Assembly: GCA_900169235.1 (NCBI GenBank)
Contig: FWCC01000201.1
Coordinates: 1-64,000 of the forward strand
DNA from: Zarea fungicola
Lineage: Eukaryota > Ascomycota > Sordariomycetes > Hypocreales > Cordycipitaceae
DNA length: 64,000 nucleotides
Direction: 5' to 3'
The translations under genes and the position numbers were made by a program. Shown here piece after piece: positions 9,000 through 24,890 of the stretch. Positions within the stretch are counted from its first letter, which is position 1; each line of letters starts with the position of its first letter. The notes under the pieces are model-generated. The model ran no database searches. It was not told the DNA's origin and saw nothing but the letters and a program-made list of their open reading frames with translations.

Positions 9000-9525
9000 C
9001 TAGTGGCATCCGTCGTTAATATTTCGAAGCTGGGCCAACAGGTTCAAACCAGTATCGCCATGACAGATAGCATCACCAATACTATTTTAATGTAAGCGCC
9101 GGAAATTGTAAAGAGTTTTAGTATACTCACTGTGTGCTGCATTCGCCAATGATGTATTTAATAACCCATGCAATCTCCCACATGGAGACATGAGTATTTA
9201 CGGGGCTGTAATACTCGTTTGAAATGCAGATTTTGGCCTGATTCCATGTATAGTCAAACCACCATTGTCCACTAGTACTAGCCTTCGAGGTAAGCCGGAA
9301 CTTCCTGTCACCGATTCTTTCGAGTTGTTCGATGAGGCCACGGATGTCTCCCTGAGGAATACTCTTCCAGCCGCCGTTGTTCTTGTTGGTATTTAGACAT
9401 GTTGCGCCTCGCTTGAAAATTTCACCCTGCGCTTCTGCCAGTGTGGTCGAACTAGCGACGGGGGGTGCAGCCGCCGCAATCAGAGCCGGCAGGCTAATAA
9501 GGGAGAGGGCGGAATGGACAAGCAT
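9000..9525 (-). CDS. Small secreted protein, effector-like
   Basis: Two exons are inferred: 9131-9525 and 9000-9081, split by a 49-bp GTGAGT...TAG intron, giving 158 residues. The ATG at 9525 starts a clear signal peptide (hydrophobic LVHSALSLISLPALIAAAA). A pro-region follows, ending in a Lys-Arg site (IFKR, about residue 39) that Kex2 could cut. The mature part has five cysteines. Its layout (W-x(4)-A-K-I-C, then a helix before G-E-C, then a last D-G-C near the end) resembles a broad fungal small-secreted-protein class. Exon 2 adds the last two cysteines. The upstream in-frame start is a TTG and was rejected. The function is unknown; location suggests an accessory secreted protein. Confidence 0.65.
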
Positions 9526-12300
9526 GATGAATATCGCAAGACGAAGTTTGAAAGAATAAAGCTGTACTTGTTGGTAGTTGGGCAACCTTGATGAACTACG
9601 AGAGAAATATAGGCAGATTGTGTCCTTTAGTAGTATTCGTATGTCGCGGCGTAGAAGTCGGCTGATTAAACATGACGCTGAGATGCACTGCTTACTCCAA
9701 CAAGCTTAACTGACAAGAGAGAAGTATCGTAATATCTTATATAAGAGTCTAAATAAAGCCTAATTGATGGCTAATTTTAGACTTACAAGTTCTACATGTG
9801 CAGTCTAGCTATTTAGCTACTTTTAGATAGCCCCATCTAAGCTATGAATAGCTCTGCCATAAACTCGTGAGAGATTAAAACATTTCAGAGTAGCTTTATT
9901 TAAAGGCTGGGCAGTGCAGAAAACGAGAATACAATGTATGCTTGATGTCAGTTATTCCAAATTCACATGGCGACACGCCGAGCTTAATGGTTACCCGCTT
10001 AACGGCTACCCGCTTACTGGTTACCCGCTTACTGGTTCCCGGCTTACTGGTTCCTGGCCAACTGGGTACCCGATTCACAGGTTCCATACGTTTTATTTAT
10101 TTATTGATTTATTATCATTATCATTATTAATTATACACCCTGTTGACCTAGGCAGGTCATAGGGTCCTTCAATCTATGGAATGGGGGGAAGAACTGGGCG
10201 AGGCCCATGGGAAAACCCCCCGTCTACGGGTGTAATACGGTGTATACAAAAAGGTGCAGTACGTGGGAAAAAACAGCTGCCTGCTGCAGCTCCGTCGCTC
10301 CTTTTGGGCTTCTTCAGCGCTCTTCAGCGCCTGCGCCGGGGTGAGTAGGCCCGGACAAGAGCCTGGGTACCTACGTGTTGAGCGAAGCGGTGCTCCTGCC
10401 TGTCTGGGTCAGTCGCCGAGGCGCGGGGGACTACCGGCGGACTCGGGTGTTTCTGGAGGGGGATTTATTCATTTATTAATTTATTCATTCATAGAATGTC
10501 GCCACCCGACTTCAGGTGGCTATGCTGCGTGCAAAAATATACAAAATGCGGATCAGTCGCTCTTGCGGGAAAACTGTGCTTGTCAGGCTGCTCCTACAAG
10601 AGAGATTCCTCCGTGCCAATCGACGGGACTTATGGCTGCGCTTTGCCTACAGTTATTCTATCTGTGCTTTCTCTGAACTTGTCAGGCCCTTTCCCAAACC
10701 CTCCTGAACTTCTAGATGACCAATGGCACTCATCTACGCTGGTGAATAAAGTACAGTGGACAGGATTGCTTAAAGTTGTTCTAATAATCCCGTCCCTATG
10801 ATCTTTTTGCTACATGCACTGCGGCTGATCGGCCATGGAGAATGCATTCAAGATCAACGTATGGATATTAAACTACCCACATCTTCTATTGTTCTTCTAT
10901 CCAGGCTCTGAATTCAAGTAGGATGCGCCATATAGTCCAAGGTCTACAGCCACACTAGTATTTATCTATTTTGGCTCTAGTAATGGCATAGAGGTACGCA
11001 CTTGCTCCGATCTTGCCCTAGAGCTGACAGAGCAGACAGGCGTTTGTTGCTACGGTCTCCATCTTCTCTCAATAGTGTCCCCACCAGAGTCTAGTAGCTA
11101 TGAGGATGCCTAGTTAGCGGCAAGATAGAGAGAGACTCCTGGATAGTAGGCGGAGAGCATGTGTGCTGTGACAACCAATGCAGACCTTGCCTGCCAGTTG
11201 CCGAATCTCCGGCACGCTTGGCATGGCTGTTGCGGTTATTAACTTGACTGATCAAGCAAACGTATCTATCGAAGCTCAATCGCGGCTACAGGCCTCCCTC
11301 CGTCTTTGAACACCGTGGACGCCAGCAGCCTGCCACGGATATGACAAGTCAGGAACCCAACAGCTAATACAAATAATTCCTCTTGTTGCTAATGATATGT
11401 GAATAAAAGTTTCCTCCTCCGTCAATAGCCAAGTTCTTTTCGAATATCATTAAGTCGCCAATCGCAGATTTGTTAAGAGTACCCCCCTTCAGCCCGAGCA
11501 AGGCCAGCTTGACCAGGAACGTTCTCGCGTATATACCAGCAACGGCACCGATAAAGTGCACACCGCGGTGGGTCGGAGTTCGGCTTTATTGACATAAGGT
11601 GCTGTTTAGTTCCGCCAATCAGCTGTTGTGGCTCGTTGAGCTGTTGTTTGGTGCTGTTCTCTCCATATTTGCTCTCGACGGCGTGTCCATGTACACTTTG
11701 CCACTTCGTGGTTTGCTTGTGTGACTATATGTACGGATTTTAACTTAAAATAGTGACTACAAATAAACAAAACTTACCGTCTGCTTCATGGGCATGTCGT
11801 TTATAGGCCAGAGCCGCTGTGGAATCTAAACGCTCTATAGACAGATGTCTCTAAACGAGCATTTCAAACCATGTTAACGCTCCGTGTCTGTGATGATGCG
11901 TTATACGGCGCATAGGACAAAGAAGTCCCAACAGAAGCTTACGCAAATACAATAAGATACCTCCGTATTGCCGGACAGTAAATTTCCTGCCCTTCACCAG
12001 CCACAGACTAAAGTAGTGATCAAAATTATCGATTTGTAGCATAAGCACCCAGCTGAATGATGCTAAGATGAGTTAATGAAGTTCATGACAGAGGAGGCAT
12101 CAGATTGGATCTTTGGAAGAAATAATTTTTGCCAAGGAATACTTTGGACACGAATCAAGCTTGTTGTGCAACTTCACGCTACATCGTAATGCCACTCGCT
12201 CTGTAAACAGGTCACGTGGATCACCCGCAGAACTAATACAGAAAATTGAATAGTAACGCTCGTAGTTCATAGTTACAGGACTCCCAGCGGCGAGAAGTGT
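9526..12300. other. Gene-poor AT-rich stretch with repeats
   Basis: No intact protein gene is recognised. It holds a 15-bp tandem repeat (9989-10078) and two T/A-rich simple stretches (about 10086-10135 and 10464-10495), each bordering GC-richer sequence. Minus-strand frames near 11364-11561 and 11851-12048 have no recognisable domains. The GC-rich islands with A/T tails could be truncated 3' ends of LINE-like elements, but I could not confirm this. Confidence 0.4.
9989..10078. repeat. 15-bp tandem repeat, 6 units
   Basis: Six consecutive 15-bp units based on GGTTACCCGCTTACT, the last two more diverged. On the plus strand one frame reads as a pentapeptide repeat (GYPLT-like). No start, signal or longer gene is attached to it. 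Confidence 0.85.
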
Positions 12301-15352: not shown

Positions 15353-15947
15353 ATGAAGTTTGCTATTGCCGTTGCATGCCTGGCAGGCGCTGTCGCTGCC
15401 TCTCCAGTGAGTACTGGCAACGACGGCGACTGAATATGCCTGCATGTCCCGTCGCACGCAACACCGTAAACTTGTTTACTGATGGATCTTTTTGTGCTAG
15501 ATGCAAGCGAGAGCTGAACAGGCAGAGCAGGCTCAGCAGGCTGCGCCGAGCGGGGGTTTCCTTAGCAACATCTTCGACCAAGGAGCGTGCTTTGTCGGCG
15601 GTTTCTTGGGCAGCCAAAACCCGAACTGCAAAGGTGCTACTGCCAACCCAGGGAAGCCCAACTTCATCGGCGAGATCTTCGACGCCGGGGCGTGCATTGT
15701 CAGCGGCTTCATTGGCGGCGGGAACCCCAACTGCGGCAAGGGCAAGGGCAACAGCTCTTCCGGCGCGGATTACACTTTCAACTACAACACCGACAAAAAC
15801 GGAGTCGTCAAATTGGTGATTACAATAACGAAGGGTGGTAAGCAGTGCCCGTATTCTTTCATACCCGCCGAGGGCCTGGACCTTAAGGTATTCATATCGA
15901 CGGCCGGTGAGGAATGCGTCAAGGGCACCAACTCGTTAAACGTTTAG
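15353..15947 (+). CDS. Secreted protein with a duplicated 26-residue cysteine motif
   Basis: Two exons, 15353-15406 and 15501-15947, give 166 residues. Exon 1 is a signal peptide (MKFAIAVACLAGAVAAS); the 94-bp intron begins directly after it. After a Gln/Ala-rich linker come two adjacent copies of the motif F-x(3)-IFD-x-GAC-x-V-x-GF-x-G-x(2)-NPNC (about residues 38-63 and 73-98). A Gly/Ser hinge follows, then a C-terminal domain of about 65 residues with two cysteines (KQC and EEC). It is probably extracellular. I do not recognise the family; the internal duplication and signal peptide suggest a surface-active or effector-like protein. It is the third secreted-protein gene of this island. Confidence 0.75.
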
Positions 15948-16108: not shown

Positions 16109-17304
16109 TCAGGTTTTAATTGGGCCAGTTTCAGACCGTTGATGAAACTCATACAAGCGCTCTGTCCAGTCGTATACATAGTCGTGCTTAAAGCCGCGCG
16201 CGTGGCAAACGTTTCTGAACAGCCGGCGAAGATAACTGTAGTTGGGCATCTGCCCGTACCGCAGACCCTTCACATGATCCATATACTTGACAAACTCCTT
16301 TGGAAGGCCGCGGCAGAGCGACTTGCTGCTCACGGCCTTTTTCACAGCGCAAATTGCCTTGAGATCAGCAAGCGAGTAGTCGCGCTGACTGGATCGCTGC
16401 CACGGAAGTGAGCCCTTGATCAAGTGCACCAAAGAATAGCCCAAAGCCTCCAGATCGTCGGCGAATGATTGCGCTGTAGTATCCGCATGTTAGTTATTTA
16501 AAAGAGCAAGATTGGTACCAGGACGACGGGGGAGGGGGAGGACTCACGCCGAAACTCATGGGCAGCAAGTGGTGCATATGGAGGCGTGCCTACAAAATCA
16601 TCCAGTGTTTTCGAACCACCCTCTGGGTCAAACTTGCGTGTTATGCCAAAGTCGATTTGATATGCCACGTTGGCATGCTTACCGTGGCCCATGAGAAGGT
16701 TTTCCATCTTGACGTCGCCGTGTACATAGCCTTTGCGATGCATGTACGCGAGCCGCGCAATGGCCTGATCGGCAACCATGAGCACTGTCTTGAGTGAGAG
16801 AGATCTCTTGCAGTATAAAAACAGGTCCAAGAGCGAGGGGCCGAGTCTCTCGTAGACGAGGATGCTATAGTCATCTTCCTGGCCGCACCAAATCAGCTCG
16901 GGAAAGCCGCTTCTTCTTCCGCCGTGTAAGGCCCTGCAAGTGTCAGCTTCAGCTTCTACCTTTTCGTGTGTCCTACGTTGCAATTTGACAGCAACTTCCC
17001 TGTCTGAGCCAAGGATGTGTCCTAAATGGCAAAATGGAGGTTAGCAGATGATTGCGTGGTCGGAGGATGGGGATTGGTGGTGGGTTTGGATGCTTACCAG
17101 CGTAGACCGCACCATATCCGCCAGCGCCGATTAAGTAGTCTAAACAGAACTGGTCGTTGATGATGACATTTAACTTGAAAAAGGTCAGTGAGTTTCAAGC
17201 TTTAGGGAAAGGGTATTCACTACTTTTGGGTCTGTGGATTGATCTGACTGCGTCGTTGTGATGGAGTGCGTCTTTAGGTCGGTTGTACGTTGACGCAGAC
17301 GCAT
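16109..17304 (-). CDS. Casein-kinase-1-like protein kinase, module copy 1
   Basis: Four exons (17224-17304, 17098-17173, 16548-17021, 16109-16473) join in phases 0, 1, 1 and give 331 residues. Kinase landmarks: glycine loop IGAGGYGAVYAG, Lys65 in VAVK, catalytic-loop Asp155 in YVHGDVKMEN, DFG at 176-178, and the CK1-specific DDLEALGYSLVHLIKGSLPW segment followed by a C-lobe like that of CK1. The HRD arginine is replaced by Gly (HGD), so the activation-loop pocket is altered, but the Lys, Asp and DFG needed for catalysis are present. Exon 1 is 27 residues here and only 2 in copy 2; the other introns occupy equivalent sites. It is divergent from the large gene at 18002, with about 700 bp between the starts. 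Substrates are unknown. Confidence 0.85.
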
Positions 17305-18001
17305 TGTGTCTGGGATTTGATGGAGTGGAGGAATTAGTCCTGGTTTGAATGTACGTGGAGCAGTAAACGCCAATTTTGGGTAGGAGATGAGTTTAGGAAG
17401 GAGATGCTTATCGACAGAGTCATCATCAAATGGATGAGCCTTGCCTAATATAGCTTACAAGAAGAGGGCAATACTGTGCCTGGCACGTTATACTTTCACA
17501 TTGGACATGAAAATGGCAAAGAGACAGGTAAAGAAATTGAATAATTACATTGAAGAAAGGATACTCTAGCAAAGGAAATGTTAGCATCTTGGTGTGTACT
17601 GGACGACATTTGCCAAAGCCAGCAAGACGACAAAAGGCGAGCAATAGAAGGGAAACAATGTGAGGCGAACAAGAATATAAAGCAAGAAGCTGTAAATTAA
17701 AGGATTAAGGGGGCGCAAAGAAACTGAAATGTTTGGAACGTGAAAGAACAAAGCATGGATCGGACACAGTCAGTGCGTCTCGTGCCTTTTGTCTTTCTTT
17801 GTGTTTGTCTTTGGCGCGCTGCGCGGTGTGCCCAGATGGCGGTGGTTCCCATTTCTCTACATAAAGGAAGATGCTGGGTATCCCGCACCAAAAAAATGCC
17901 CGACATAGGAATCACTCCAACGCAAAGAGTTTCCGACTGTGGTCTTTGCCAGTTCCAAGTTGCCAGTTTCTCTAGCACAACCAATACACCAAAGGCCTGC
18001 C
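17305..18001. promoter_or_regulatory. Shared intergenic region of divergent module copy 1
   Basis: 697 bp separate the two divergent start codons, so both promoters must lie here and could be co-regulated. No gene is seen inside. I could not identify specific binding sites with confidence. Confidence 0.4.
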
Positions 18002-19930
18002 ATGGCTGGCCTTTCCTCGAAGCGATCCCGCCAGATTGACGGCCCAGGATCAGATTCGTCAACAGAAAAGAGGGTGAAACTTGAATCATATGGCCATCTT
18101 GAGAATGGAAATGTGCCTATGTTTACTGCCAACCCTGAGGCAACCGCCGACACTGGACCTGAGTCCGCTGCACCGAAGACTGAGCCGCACGAACTCAGCC
18201 GCGTTTTACAGCAAGGTGACATGCCATCACTGAGCAATGACCCCAAGTCAATTGACGCCCTGAAGTCCGAGCCTGTTGCAGCAAAGATGGAGAACGAGTC
18301 AAGTGGCTTATTGGAGGCAGGTGGTGTGCCACTGCTTCATCGCGCCGCCGAGTCAAATGGCGTCCTAGGATCCAAACTCCCTGCAGCAAAGGTGGAGGAA
18401 CCGGAACCAAGCAGCAGGCCGAAACGAGCAGAATTTGCTGTGATGGATGCCACTGAAGGCTTTGCGTTGATTGCACCACAGTCGGAGAATCTTGAGCGAG
18501 ATAATGAGACCAAACGAAGCACCACTCCGGTTGCAGAAAAGGCCACCCCATGGTACAGGTACATCTTGGGAGCCAAGCTTCTTGCACGACAGAGGGAGCA
18601 ACTCGAACCGGGTAACACACCGGCACTAGATGATGTCCATGAATTACGGACCGTCGCCCAGCGAGGTGATGGCCGCGGATCAAGGGCCATGCCTGAGCCA
18701 GGTCAGCCTCCCAAGCCCTCGCCAAGTCAACCTCCCGAGCCAAGTCAATCTCCCCAGCCCGAGATGCTCCCTCTTAGCGAGGAGGCCTTGGAACGATTGA
18801 AGCAGCAGCCACTGCCTCGAGCACCACGGCCAGAGGGCCCGAAACCGACAGACATTGCTCGCTTTGCAAGAAACGGGGGCCCAAACCTGAGGCTCATCAG
18901 AGCGGTAAGAAAAAAAAGAATTTGGAAGTTTTGCGTTGCATCTAGAAATCGCTAACCAGGTGTTGTTACGCAGGATGTGCAAACCCCTCCGCAACCTCTG
19001 GTACGTGGCGGGCGACGCAACTGGGCCTTTAGCGAGGAGCACATTGACCCTGTACTCTTTTGCAGCAGAATCTATCCAATTGGCTACAACTTCCCCCTCG
19101 GACCTGTGCCGGTGGGCCTTGACAAGGACAGGGAGAAGCTCCTCGACCCCACGGCGTCCTTTTCAGGCCAGGACCTCGCGACGGCTGCCGATTTCGAACA
19201 CTTCAAGCTCGAGAACACGCCCCCCGACGGCCGTCCCGTGGTGCTGGCCAATATTGCCAGGATCCTCACGGGTTACGGCAAGCCGGCGTGCCGGAGGGGC
19301 GGGGGCGTCGCCTTCACCAACATGACGCCGCTCGGGAGGACGAGCGTGCCCGCGCCGGACTACTACGACACCGTGGGCCCGATGGAGCTGGACCAGTGGG
19401 CGCTGCGGGCGCTGAGCTGGGAGATTGCGCCCACGGCGGACCAGACGATGCCCGTCGCGCCCAACTTCTTCCTCGAGGTGCGCGACGCCGATGGGAAGGG
19501 CCGGGACGGGGAGACGGCGGCGCGGACAAGGTCGTATCTGGACGGCGCGTACGGGGCGCGGGCGATGCACGCGCTGTACAACTTTGGCCGGCCCGAGCGC
19601 ATCTGCGACGAGAGGGCGAGGACGTTTACGGCGACGTTTGAGGCGGGCACGGGACTGCTCGAGATTTACTGCCACCACGTCGTCGAGCTGCCGCGGGACA
19701 GGGGGGACAAGGAAGGGGTGCTCGAGTTCCACACGACGTTCCTCTGGGGCCTGACGCTGACGGCCAGCCTGAATGCGTTTGTCATGGGCGTCGGCATTTT
19801 TCGCAATGTGCGGGAGATGGCGCGCAGGAAGAGGACTCAGCTGGTGAACGAGGCGAATGTCAGGGCCTTGCATGTGTATGCGGCGAGGAATGGTCAAGTC
19901 GGCCGGCCGGTTGGGGAGGACCGCGTATGA
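18002..19930 (+). CDS. Large PD-(D/E)XK-like fungal protein, module copy 1
   Basis: Two exons, 18002-18904 and 18974-19930, give 619 residues. The N-terminal half is disordered and contains about three imperfect 33-36-residue repeats (K-x-E...LE-x-G-x-V/M-P..., residues about 22-130), then a Pro/Ser/Gln stretch. The intron follows a conserved IARFARNGGPNLRLIR segment. The C-terminal domain carries PDYYD (about 429) and PNFFLEVR (about 462-471), then GARAMHALYNFG. That pattern (P-D, about 40 residues, E-x-K) is shared with module copy 2 and with a common uncharacterised fungal family, and resembles a PD-(D/E)XK nuclease core. Here the last catalytic residue reads Arg instead of Lys, so activity may be lost or changed. 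The nuclease assignment is inference. Confidence 0.7.
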
Positions 19931-20217
19931 TGATAGAGCTTCCTCCTAGTTGGAATTTAAAGCGATTTTTTCAGCTTTTACCTTGTTTTTTGTTCCCTTT
20001 AATTCTTTTGCTGCGTTATGGCACTGGCGTTGGGAGATCTGTAGGCTATCCTTGGCTCAACCGATTGAATGGCAAGTTGTGATGAGAAATTCCGAACAAA
20101 ATTCGAAATAAATTAAACATAAACCCGTATTGTAATTAAATAATTGGGTCGATTAATTGGTCTCAAGCAAGACAATGTTAAATCATCTCCACGTGCTCAA
20201 TCTGGCAAGTCTGTCTT

Positions 20218-21415
20218 TTAGGTACCCTTATGGTCAGTATTTGGTTTCAGAGCCGTTCTGTTTCTTTTCTCTCTTTCTTGCCCCCTCTTTACTGATTTAT
20301 TCTTCAATTCGATGGCATGTAGTTCGTGGAATCGCTTCTCAGTCCAGTCATACACATTGTCATGGGCGAAACCTCGGGCCTCAAAGAGCTTACTGAACAG
20401 CCGGCGGAGGTACGCGTAGTCTGGCTTCTCCCTAAATTTCAGTGAGCGCACGTGGTCCATGTACAGACGAAACTCCTCTGGAAGACCTTCACAGAGCTCT
20501 GCGGTGGATATGGCCATTTTCGTATTCTTGGCTAGCTCTCGCTCTTCCTTTTCCTTGGCCGAGCCAAAGGAGCGCCACGGGAGCGAGCCGCGGGCCCAAT
20601 ACAACATGACATAGCCAAGAGACTCCAGGTCGTCACTCCAAGATGGTTCTGCGCATAACATTTCTTGTTAGTTGGCAAAGTGTAAGACGAGATGATCAGA
20701 GCCATAACTGGGAGGAGAGGAGGGAAATGACGAACCTCGGCCCATGTGGCTATTGATGCTGGCATAGCGGCCCGTTCCGAGAAACCGAGTGCCTTCCCGC
20801 GGGACGGTGCGGCCTGTATCTTCGAGCTCCCTTGATATGCCAAAATCAATAATGTAGAGCACGTTTCCTTGTTTGCCCGTGCCGAGAAGAAAATTTTCTG
20901 GCTTGACGTCGGAGTGCAAAAAGCCCCTGTCGTGGATAAAGGCGAGGCGTGCGAGGGCCTGGTCGGCGAGCATGAGGATCGTCTTGAGGGAGAAGCGACC
21001 ACCACAGTACGCCAAGAGATCACATAGCGTCGGACCGAGTAGCTCGTGGGCGAGAACTGTGTATTCATGCTCCTCGCCGCACCAAAAGACGCGCGGGATG
21101 CCGGCACCGCCGGCGAGGGCCGCGTAGACGTCAGCTTCATGCTCTAGGATGCGCATCTCATCGTTGACGGACATGAGTTTGAGCGCGACTGGCCGCCCAG
21201 TTTTGAGCTCAGTACCTGCAGCGCGAGACAAGGTGTTAGATGAAGACGATTTACAGATGCAGGGGCAGCGCTGTTGGCGGCGTTTACCAGCATAGACAAG
21301 GCCGTATCCTCCTCGGCCGATCTTGTAGTCGACGGTGAACTGTTTATTGACTAGGATAGGCTAAAAAGGTAAGAATGGGCTGAAATTGAGGTAAACTGAG
21401 AGGTAATACCTTCAT
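20218..21415 (-). CDS. Casein-kinase-1-like protein kinase, module copy 2
   Basis: Four exons (21410-21415, 21288-21360, 20736-21215, 20218-20648) give 329 residues; the first exon is only ATG AAG. Landmarks: IGRGGYGLVYAG, Lys39 in VALK, Asp129 in FLHSDVKPEN, DFG at 150-152, and the CK1 segment SDDLESLGYVMLYWARGSLPW. The HRD arginine is Ser here (Gly in copy 1). The C-lobe matches copy 1 closely through YDWTE, and a Lys/Arg-rich tail (KNKSVKRGQEREKRNR) could serve nuclear localisation. All three introns sit at positions equivalent to copy 1, so the two are paralogues from a module duplication. It ends 287 bp from the end of the large gene of copy 1 (convergent) and starts about 460 bp from that of copy 2 (divergent). 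Confidence 0.85.
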
Positions 21416-21874
21416 TGTGTGGTTAATTACCAGTGAAGACGGTTTCAGGTTGGAGGAAAAGCAGGGGAAATTTGGCACTCTGCAGCATGCCGACTTTGCT
21501 TAAGAACGCAAAGATTGGATTTGTCATGCAGCATCTTATTCCGCTAACAATTCTATTTTTAAGAGCAAGACCAGGAATGAAGAGAAATATTTCTTTGTTA
21601 TGACCATTGCACTCTTAGGGGCTGATGCAGTGCCTTGTTACACTTTTGGAGAAACAAAGACGAGTGGGTAGGTGGCGCACTGGTTGACTGCCGTTGGTCT
21701 CAGATCTTTGTTGTCGGAACTGGATTTCATTTTATAAATTAGAGTTACTTGCACCTGTTGCAATGCTGTCAAGGCTGAGGCTGTTTGACTAACGAAAGAT
21801 TCATCACCTACGTAGCTCTGCAACGGGTGAGCAAACCAAGAAAATGGTATTGAATATGAAACTCACAGATTTGA
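21416..21874. promoter_or_regulatory. Shared intergenic region of divergent module copy 2
   Basis: About 460 bp between the divergent start regions. It should hold both promoters and, very likely, the missing first exon of the plus-strand gene. One possible donor is GGTGAG near 21829 with an acceptor GACAG near 21890, but no start codon fits cleanly. Confidence 0.35.
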
Positions 21875-23122
21875 GTGTCATTGTTGACAGAGGTATATAA
21901 GCACAAGAATTTTCCACCTGCGGCTTATGATGGGCTACCGCAAGTCCATCTTACACGACGTGCATTGAGAGAACTAGATCGGCGAAACAGCCAGAGACCT
22001 TGTCGGGCACCGACTACCAACGACGCACCAGACTCTGACCTGCGTAGATTTGCAAGGAACGGAGGCCCAGATTTAAGCATCATTAGAGGGGTGAGTGGCT
22101 CCTCTTCCCATCCTCTTCTTCCTTCACACTTCCTTGCCTAGCCGGCCTATGGTCTACTGCTAACGCGATGACAGTGCTCCGCCTCAACCGACATGGCCAC
22201 GACCGACCTCGCTTTCGCATTTGCGGGCGAATCCTCGAAACAGAGGAGATCCTCTCCGTATGACGACAATTTTGAAGCAATAATTGTCGATTATAACATT
22301 TTTATGGAATCACATCTGTTTTCGCAGGGCAGAATCGCTCCCCAGCCCAGCAATCTTGAAACAATTGTCGAATTTCTGTCCAAACCGCGAAGGTGCCCTT
22401 CTTTATCCGCCGTTTCCCCGTTGGACTTTGTCCATTTCCGACAAATGTGCTCGATTCAAGCGGAGGGTTCGGTCATGGCCAAAGCTGTGCCGATAGTGAC
22501 AGGCCCCAGCACAATGTGGGACGGCAACAATGTCACGTTTTCCAATCTTGAGTCCATGACGGCGAAGCAGACGGCACAGCCCAAGCCAGACCTCTTTGAC
22601 GGTGCGTGCTTTGGCGATGTAGATCTACCTGTCCGCAAAGCGCTGAATACCGTAATTATGCCAACGGAGAATGTCACGGTGCCGGTCGTGCCCAACTTCT
22701 TCCTGGAAGTCAAGAGCTGCAAGGGCTCGCCCCTTGTGGCCAACAGGCAGGCATGCTGGGATGGCGCGCACGGAGCCCGTGCCATGCACGCTCTGCACAA
22801 CTTTGGCAGCAAGGCAGGGCAAGGAGACGAGGATGGGGGTGAGTTGTTTGACGGCAATGCCTATACGTTTAGCGCCACCTTTTGCGCTGGCATACTCGAG
22901 ATGTTTGCGCACTTTGTGACGCTGGCGGCGGATGGGCGGCGGGAGTACCACATGACCATGCTGAGGGGGGTCAACATGCGCGATGGCATTGATTCGTTTG
23001 TTCAAGGTGCTTCGATGCTGAGAAATGCGAGAGACTTGGCGAAATTGTACAGGGATGCCGCTATCAAGGCTGCGAATGGACGGGCGGCGCAGGCTCGGAC
23101 ATTTTGCGAATCATGCGAATGA
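21875..23122 (+). CDS. PD-(D/E)XK-like fungal protein, module copy 2 (5' end unresolved)
   Basis: Two exons are clear: one ending at 22090 and one at 22175-23122, joined in phase 0 by an 84-bp GTGAGT...ACAG intron at the same place as in copy 1, right after DLRRFARNGGPDLSIIRG. The visible protein is about 385 residues. Exon 1 has no ATG and is preceded by a stop, so a short upstream exon is missing from the model. The C-terminal domain has KPDLFDGA and VPNFFLEVKS: P-D then E-V-K, the full PD-(D/E)XK-like pattern, unlike copy 1 where K is R. It then has GARAMHALHNFG and a segment starting YTFSATF. It lacks the long repeat-rich N-terminus of copy 1. Family function is unknown; a nuclease fold is inferred. 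Confidence 0.65.
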
Positions 23123-23943: not shown

Positions 23944-24890
23944 TGAATGGTATACGTAATTACCAATACTATATCCACATAATTTCTATCCATGGCGTAA
24001 GCTCGAAATAGAATTTCCAACGGAAAAAGAAGCAGCAAGTTGCAGGGTTACTGCACGAAGAAGAAGAGGTAGTTTTCCGGCCGGTGGTCAGTTTGATGTA
24101 GTTGATGGAAGAAAGGTCTCTCTGGTGGTCTTGGCGCCGCATGCGATGTTGTTTTTTCAGGCCATCTTTCCTTGGACTCTAGCTCTTTATTGGGAATCCA
24201 AACAAGTTCTGGCTCCGTGTTCGATGACAGGGCTGGAACTTCTGGCTCCTTGAGCCAGTTGGTCGAGGCTTGGGCGGCGTTTGCTCCCCTGGAGGGGAGG
24301 AAAAACGAGTAGCGCTGCATGCGGTATTGTGTCTCTCGGTATCTTTCCTTGGGTTCTAGTTCCTTGTTGGGAATCCAAACAAGTTCTGGCTCAGTGTTGG
24401 ACGTTAGGTTGATTGCCGTTGGAACTTCCGGCTCCTCGAGCCAGTCGGTCGAGGATTGGGCGGCGTTTGCTCCCCTGGAGGGGAGGAAAAACGAGTAGCG
24501 CTGCGTGAGATATTGTTTCTCAAGGTATCGTCCCTTAGATTCGAGCTCCTTGTTTGGAATCCATAGCAGTTCTGGTTTTGTGTTTGAGGTCAGGTTTGGG
24601 CCGTTCCGGCTGCTCGAGCCACTTGGTCGAGGGTTGGGCGGCGTTTGCTCCCGTAGAGGGGAGGAAAAACGAATTTAATTGCCTTTAACATATTAGGAGC
24701 TTTAGCTTAGCTATAAATTTATATTTTCTGCGTGAATAGTATACTTACTAGTACTTTATTTACATTATACTATCCATAGCGTAAGCTCGAGATGAAATTT
24801 CCAACAGATAAAGAAGCAGCCAGTTGCAGGGTTACTGCAACGAAGAGGTAGTTTTCCGGTGGTGAGTTTGGTGGTGGTTTTGATGAATTA
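23944..24890. repeat. Direct repeats of about 150 bp flanking a tandem array
   Basis: The sequence from about 23944 to 24105 recurs at about 24733-24890 with point differences and small gaps. Shared blocks include GCGTAAGCTCGA, AATTTCCAAC, AAAGAAGCAGC, GTTGCAGGGTTACTGCA and GAGGTAGTTTTCCGG. The copies lie 789 bp apart and bracket the 180-bp tandem array. The layout fits either tandem duplication of a larger unit or an element with long direct terminal repeats; no LTR-type TG...CA ends or target-site duplication were confirmed. Confidence 0.75.
24100..24690 (-). pseudogene. Decayed coding array of three 60-residue repeats
   Basis: Three tandem units of about 180 bp are seen, each with GGGAATCCAAAC-like, GAGCCAGT...GGTCGAGG and TTGCTCCCCTGGAGGGGAGG blocks. 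On the minus strand the units read as a protein repeat containing YSFFLPSRGANAAQ, STDWLEEPEVP and EPELVWIPNKELE. The first unit (highest coordinates) has a frameshift after LEQPE relative to the others, caused by a loss of about 8 bp. No start codon or upstream exon was found. The period being a multiple of three and the conserved reading frame in two units show a once-coding repeat. I do not recognise the protein. Confidence 0.6.

Follow-up and report, generated by a model that had tools for sequence, protein, structure and literature searches.

Two consecutive units of a kinase gene and a nuclease-like gene lie at positions 16109 to 23122 of a 64,000-nucleotide stretch of the Zarea fungicola genome (assembly GCA_900169235.1, contig FWCC01000201.1, positions 1 to 64,000), hereafter the window. 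Each unit contains a CK1-type kinase gene (K1, K2) on the minus strand and, divergently oriented on the plus strand, a gene for a large nuclease-like protein (L1, L2). The CK1-derived kinase family (K) and the nuclease-like family (L) travel together in fungi. The module is recognized by the pairing, the shared introns, the agreeing trees, the conserved motifs and the nuclease-like predicted fold. As read from the sequence, the divergent pairing suggests that the kinase controls or neutralizes its partner. The module may be a conflict element that combines a killer with a resistance function, as in toxin-antidote pairs, a reading to which we assign a probability of about 0.4.

Pairing within the genome

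The window is part of contig C307 (author's numbering) of a genome of 43 Mb in 456 contigs, and the closest protein relatives of its genes in a protein database search belong to Hypocreales that live in association with insects, among them Zarea and Beauveria. Protein searches of the genome recovered, besides L1 and L2, relatives of L on contigs C201, C456, C206, C255, C301 and C32, as well as close relatives of K on C456, C255, C161, C299 and C164. The kinases of C299 and C164 are canonical CK1 kinases and the remaining ones are referred to as specialized. Contigs C456 and C255 have the identical divergent layout, with K on the minus and L on the plus strand. Contig C161 carries a K gene and a divergent L first exon (RFARQGGPDLQHIRG, with its donor site) at L035:2526-2804, followed by a quinone-oxidoreductase-like gene. 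No L core was found at this locus by the protein searches, and it may be a kinase-only relic.

At all five specialized kinase loci the divergent neighbour is an L gene (K1, K2, C456 and C255) or what is left of an L first exon (C161), and all five kinases retain the catalytic residues. Neither of the two canonical kinases has an L gene beside it. The protein searches gave no K match on the L contigs C201, C206, C301 and C32, and no K-type kinase was found in the 10-kb stretches examined around six further loci of DUF7924 (PF25545), the Pfam family to which L is related. An open frame together with the whole nuclease motif is present only in L2, C456 and C206 among the nine L loci.

Pairing and co-divergence in other fungi

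Kinase and L contigs of identical length in base pairs (bp) were taken as one contig, which for megabase contigs is no proof of adjacency. The L relatives comprised 120 of 671 and 120 of 148 matches, as 90% cluster representatives. At least 20 of the 97 specialized kinase rows are located on a contig of exactly the same length as that of an L row; one of these is the window's own, which leaves at least 19 of 96. Among the 19 matching rows, one (9337 bp) nearly duplicates C456 and 18 come from other named fungi. A control in which the lengths were shifted by 1-200 bases yielded 0.15 matches on average, with a maximum of 2. The canonical CK1 rows had a same-length L contig in 0 of 21 cases, a weak control because most of these rows are short algal or protist records. 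The small size of the K/L-bearing contigs of 7973, 15721, 17234 and 88759 bp makes adjacency likely there, and the locus tags are consecutive in all four K-L pairs that could be compared (NLG97_g355/g356, LLEC1_07338/07337, H634G_08915/08914 and Uu.00g136940/136930). The adjacency of both families in other ascomycetes, proposed as a check in an earlier sequence-only reading of this DNA, is supported by the shared contigs and the consecutive tags, with a rate that is a lower bound.

The co-divergence of the two families was evaluated with one L per kinase; where a contig bore two L genes, one was left out (P0092 of M. acridum and P0101 of Anthostomella). The K and L distances over 22 pairs are correlated (Spearman 0.75, permutation p 0.0005, which is the floor for 1999 permutations), and the coefficient is 0.67 without K1/L1. 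Species descent adds to this correlation. This effect does not apply to the four pairs of this genome, among which the K and L matrices both single out K1-K2 and C456-C255 as close.

Layout, introns and duplication history

The gene models (Table 1) bear out the two back-to-back units that the sequence-only reading had described. L1 and K2 are convergent and separated by ~290 bp. The divergent intergenic gap is 697 bp in the first unit and about 430 bp in the second. The first exon and the start codon of K1 are the analyst's choice; the first open exon of L2 has no in-frame ATG, so that the start of the L2 model is provisional. A promoter shared by the two genes had been proposed for each unit. 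The gap between divergent starts is present in both, but no k-mers are common beyond chance to the five K-L gaps compared, and thus no shared regulatory motif was found among them.

Table 1. Gene models and intergenic gaps of the two kinase/nuclease-like units, in window coordinates.
Feature	Position	Strand	Details
K1, CK1-like kinase, 331 amino acids	16109..17304	-	Exons 17304-17224, 17173-17098, 17021-16548, 16473-16109; Pkinase E 2.7e-12, one exon
K1-L1 gap between divergent starts	17305..18001		697 bp
L1, DUF7924-related nuclease-like protein, 619 amino acids	18002..19930	+	Exons 18002-18904, 18974-19930; E-x-R replaces E-x-K
K2, CK1-like kinase, 329 amino acids	20218..21415	-	Exons 21415-21410, 21360-21288, 21215-20736, 20648-20218; Pkinase E 1.3e-18, one exon
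K2-L2 gap	21416..21874		Holds a candidate tiny L2 first exon, ATG 21844-21846 (read from the sequence)
L2 upstream exon	21875..22090	+	Gene model; ends in RRFARNGGPDLSIIRG; no in-frame ATG
L2 main exon, nuclease-like domain	22175..23122	+	Whole P-D...E-x-K; gene model, motif and predicted structure

Two internal introns of K1 and K2 match in position and phase, one after ...VYA-G and the other near SH-x-GR (both phase 1), and the same two introns are present in the kinases of C456, C255 and C161. The introns of L1 and L2 match after NGGP(N/D)L..IR(A/G), in phase 0. The intron after RFAR-x-GGPDL..(L/I)R(G/A) is common to L1, L2, C456 and C255, and C161 retains its donor side. The earlier statement that intron positions are equal between the copies of both genes holds in position as well as in phase.

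The protein identity is 48% between K1 and K2 over 297 amino acids (E 4e-97) and 35% between L1 and L2 over 236 amino acids (E 6e-33). These genes are true paralogues, but the pairs are old. In a tree of 127 kinases K1 is sister to the C161 kinase (support 0.75) and not to K2. The duplication of the pair as a unit, as previously claimed, agrees with the common introns and with the concordant K and L trees, but a simple local tandem event is not established because K1 groups with the C161 kinase. A recent tandem duplication was ruled out by the identities of both genes and by this weak grouping. The DNA of C456 and C255 is 74% identical over 1016 bp in K and 69% over 1204 bp in L; the gap and the flanks give no alignment.

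The kinase

K2 matches the solved structure of CK1 delta with 309 bits (E 3.2e-91) over residues 6-313, which correspond to the whole kinase domain, and this match corroborates the earlier description of the kinases as CK1-like. The match to HRR25 reaches 292 bits. Judged by sequence, K is a CK1 delta/HRR25-type paralogue that retains the main catalytic residues. The catalytic Lys, Glu, Asp and Asn and the DFG Asp are present in K1 and K2 and in 101-102 of the 102 specialized kinase rows (103 rows minus P0220).

K resembles the canonical CK1 kinases in these matches, but it differs from them in its phylogenetic placement and in its introns. The specialized kinases form a separate, fast-evolving clade of 103 rows with support of 1.0 in the 127-kinase tree, apart from the canonical C299 and C164. 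K does not group with the canonical CK1 copies of the genome, as an HRR25 or YCK orthologue would, and the HRR25-like kinase of C299 has one open frame across the region where the K genes have introns. A Fusarium kinome survey regards CK1 as an unvarying family and counts two conserved members in each ascomycete genome (PMC6001611).

The nuclease-like protein

L2 matches DUF7924 with an E-value of 3.2e-4 and 20.8 bits, below the curated cut-off of 27 bits, and L1 has no match to this family at E <= 0.1. A DUF7924 match at E <= 0.001 is present in 65 of 70 sampled L relatives. On the basis of these domain matches, L is a subfamily at the margin of DUF7924, and L1 and L2 are clear relatives of proteins that match it. 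L is linked to DUF7924 by the matches of most of its relatives and by the motif, which also occurs in part of the unlinked members. It is set apart by the score of L2 and by the kinase, of which the six other DUF7924 loci are devoid in the stretches inspected. No Pfam kinase domain is recorded in the precomputed annotation of the best 120 of 671 and 120 of 148 L relatives.

The P-D...E-x-K motif is conserved at 95-100% per position in the aligned L rows (P 125/125, D 120/125, E 122/126, K 120/126). Of the 126 rows, 120 were drawn from the 671 found and six belong to this genome; the window's own fragment P0069 is among them, as is P0006, which duplicates C456. The motif had been claimed for both large proteins; L2 retains all four residues, but L1 has R for K and reads E-x-R. 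C201 has Y for D. The proposal that the motif is peculiar to kinase-linked L was ruled out by the unlinked DUF7924 loci, half of which carry it; among the others, C335 reads QVK, C91 reads HIK and C150 is broken up.

The predicted structures have predicted local distance difference test (pLDDT) scores of 89.7 for L2 and 80.2 for L1. Both models align with the restriction-type nucleases DrdV and Uma2/DUF820, and the alignments with BpuSI (L1 only) and EcoR124I HsdR (L2) complete the best nuclease matches. No sequence relatives of note were found among solved structures. The KR...PxK clusters at the N-terminus of L (a pattern in the A2 consensus) suggest a nuclear rather than a mitochondrial location. 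A viral origin was rejected: a search of 2.9 million viral contigs gave no relative, and none of the viral models was matched with confidence. The long N-terminal extension of L1 contains a 105-bp (35-residue) repeat at 18243-18397, with copies 70% alike, which is absent from L2.

Neighbouring features

A gene at 15353-15947 on the plus strand, beside K1, encodes a small protein with a signal-like start and no Pfam family over the cut-off. This protein has an internal 105-bp repeat (15558-15629 and 15663-15734, 74% alike). Another small, secreted-looking protein without a Pfam match is encoded at 9127-9705 on the minus strand. Positions 23986-24839 contain three tandem copies of a ~180-bp unit, with a 70-bp repeat flanking them at 23986 and 24770, and pieces recur on C243 and C315.

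Weighing the explanations

In the conflict reading, K and L would be a module of two genes, passed on and duplicated together as a divergent pair. L would be located in the nucleus and have a PD-(D/E)XK nuclease-type domain as its core, and K would be a CK1-type kinase with full catalytic competence that holds L in check by acting on L itself or on the target of L. Nuclei without the matching K would suffer DNA damage by L, and resistance would come from phosphorylation by K. The toxin-antidote, incompatibility or genome-defence role first put forward from the sequence gains from the family adjacency, the duplication of the unit and the nuclease-like predicted fold, but not from L1, which lacks the catalytic lysine. 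A toxin-antidote role is slightly preferred over a regulated host nuclease, and host regulation explains the pairing nearly as well. A more specific version is somewhat less likely: a second killer-resistance system of filamentous ascomycetes, independent of Spok and divided between two divergent genes, whose CK1-derived kinase would neutralize a DUF7924-type nuclease in a manner specific to each dispersed pair, with solo kinases as resistance-only relics. Copies that retain only the antidote have been reported for Spok, and for wtf they are predicted (PMC12693581).

Several observations weigh against the conflict reading. No same-length L row was present among the matches listed for 77 of the 97 specialized kinase rows, and the nearest relatives of L2, predicted before the search to lie on the contigs of the five nearest relatives of K2, were found on one of the five (Hirsutella). 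The catalytic lysine is missing from L1 although its locus is paired, C206 has an intact L with the whole motif and no adjoining kinase, and three of the six unlinked DUF7924 loci of this genome also carry P-D...E-x-K. The HRD arginine, present in 83 of 102 specialized rows, is substituted in K1, K2 and the C255 kinase. The top structural match of the L1 and L2 models is a mitoribosomal chain and not a nuclease, and Foldseek with these models gave nothing at E <= 0.001. The PD-(D/E)XK fold that was to be checked by structure prediction is suggested by the alignment of both models with such nucleases, but neither by the best match nor by any Foldseek hit at this threshold. In favour of the conflict reading, the decay of the loci is one-sided, as would be expected if L is costly and K useful, though on small numbers that include the intact solo L of C206 and the altered L1 within a pair. 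Rare adjacency of the two families, lack of a nuclease-like fold and an unrelated origin of the copies, which the sequence-only reading had named as evidence against itself, were all examined and none was found, the adjacency rate being bounded from below only.

A pair that serves the host is a possibility of real weight, tentative as it is. L would then be a nuclease or nucleic-acid-binding factor of repair, recombination or genome defence, with K as its phosphorylation switch and no selfish role. The many genera spanned and the agreement of the K and L trees over the 22 pairs are as expected of a long-kept regulatory pair, canonical CK1/HRR25 kinases are general regulators (PMC6001611), and the remaining scanned genes of the window are ordinary housekeeping and metabolic genes. 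On the other hand, several of the nine L loci are broken or altered, and the K-L pairs are dispersed, fast-evolving and multi-copy. DUF7924 is also highly variable within Neurospora crassa, where it belongs to the most variable gene families of the pangenome (PMC13412767).

It is improbable that L is a structural or RNA-binding protein with a fold that is no longer catalytic, like the best-matching mitoribosomal proteins, with K and L merely co-regulated neighbours. The matched mitoribosome chains '5' and 's' are presumably mL37 and mL65, and no literature that ties these two proteins to a nuclease was found. A purely structural role leaves unexplained the motif residues kept in at least 95% of the aligned rows, and the N-terminal KR...PxK clusters would favour the nucleus over the mitochondrion. 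Dispersal by transposition, in which the pair would be part of a mobile element or borne by one, with L derived from a transposon nuclease and K taken along, is very unlikely. The dispersed copies on C456 and C255 are alike in the two genes only, with unalike gap and flanks, as such dispersal would allow, but coding conservation alone would yield the same pattern in old copies. Around the window copies neither terminal repeats nor target-site duplications were observed, and the viral contigs searched hold no relative.

Comparison with Spok and significance

In the Spok spore killers of Podospora and Fusarium, killing requires the nuclease domain and resistance the kinase domain, with DNA damage as the likely effect (PMC6660238, PMC9972908 and PMC12693581). 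The Spok kinase is described as resembling eukaryotic-like kinases more closely, and a cluster of cysteines precedes it within the one protein (PMC6660238). The K-L pair is similar to Spok in that a PD-(D/E)XK-type domain and a kinase occur together, both with predicted activities, and in that the copies multiply, disperse and decay. It differs in that K and L are two divergent genes, whereas Spok is one protein, and in that K is CK1-type by sequence, from which the Spok kinase is set apart by its description. The comparison with Spok was offered as an analogy and stays so, K being a CK1-type kinase in its own gene. No published description of the K-L pair was found in a literature search.

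If K is an antidote, the pair would be a fungal conflict element of a new class, in which toxin and resistance each have a gene of their own, and the question raised by Spok, how a single protein both kills and protects, would become testable gene by gene. If the pair serves the host, DUF7924, which differs strongly from one Neurospora strain to another, would gain its first partner and a hypothesis about its biochemistry.
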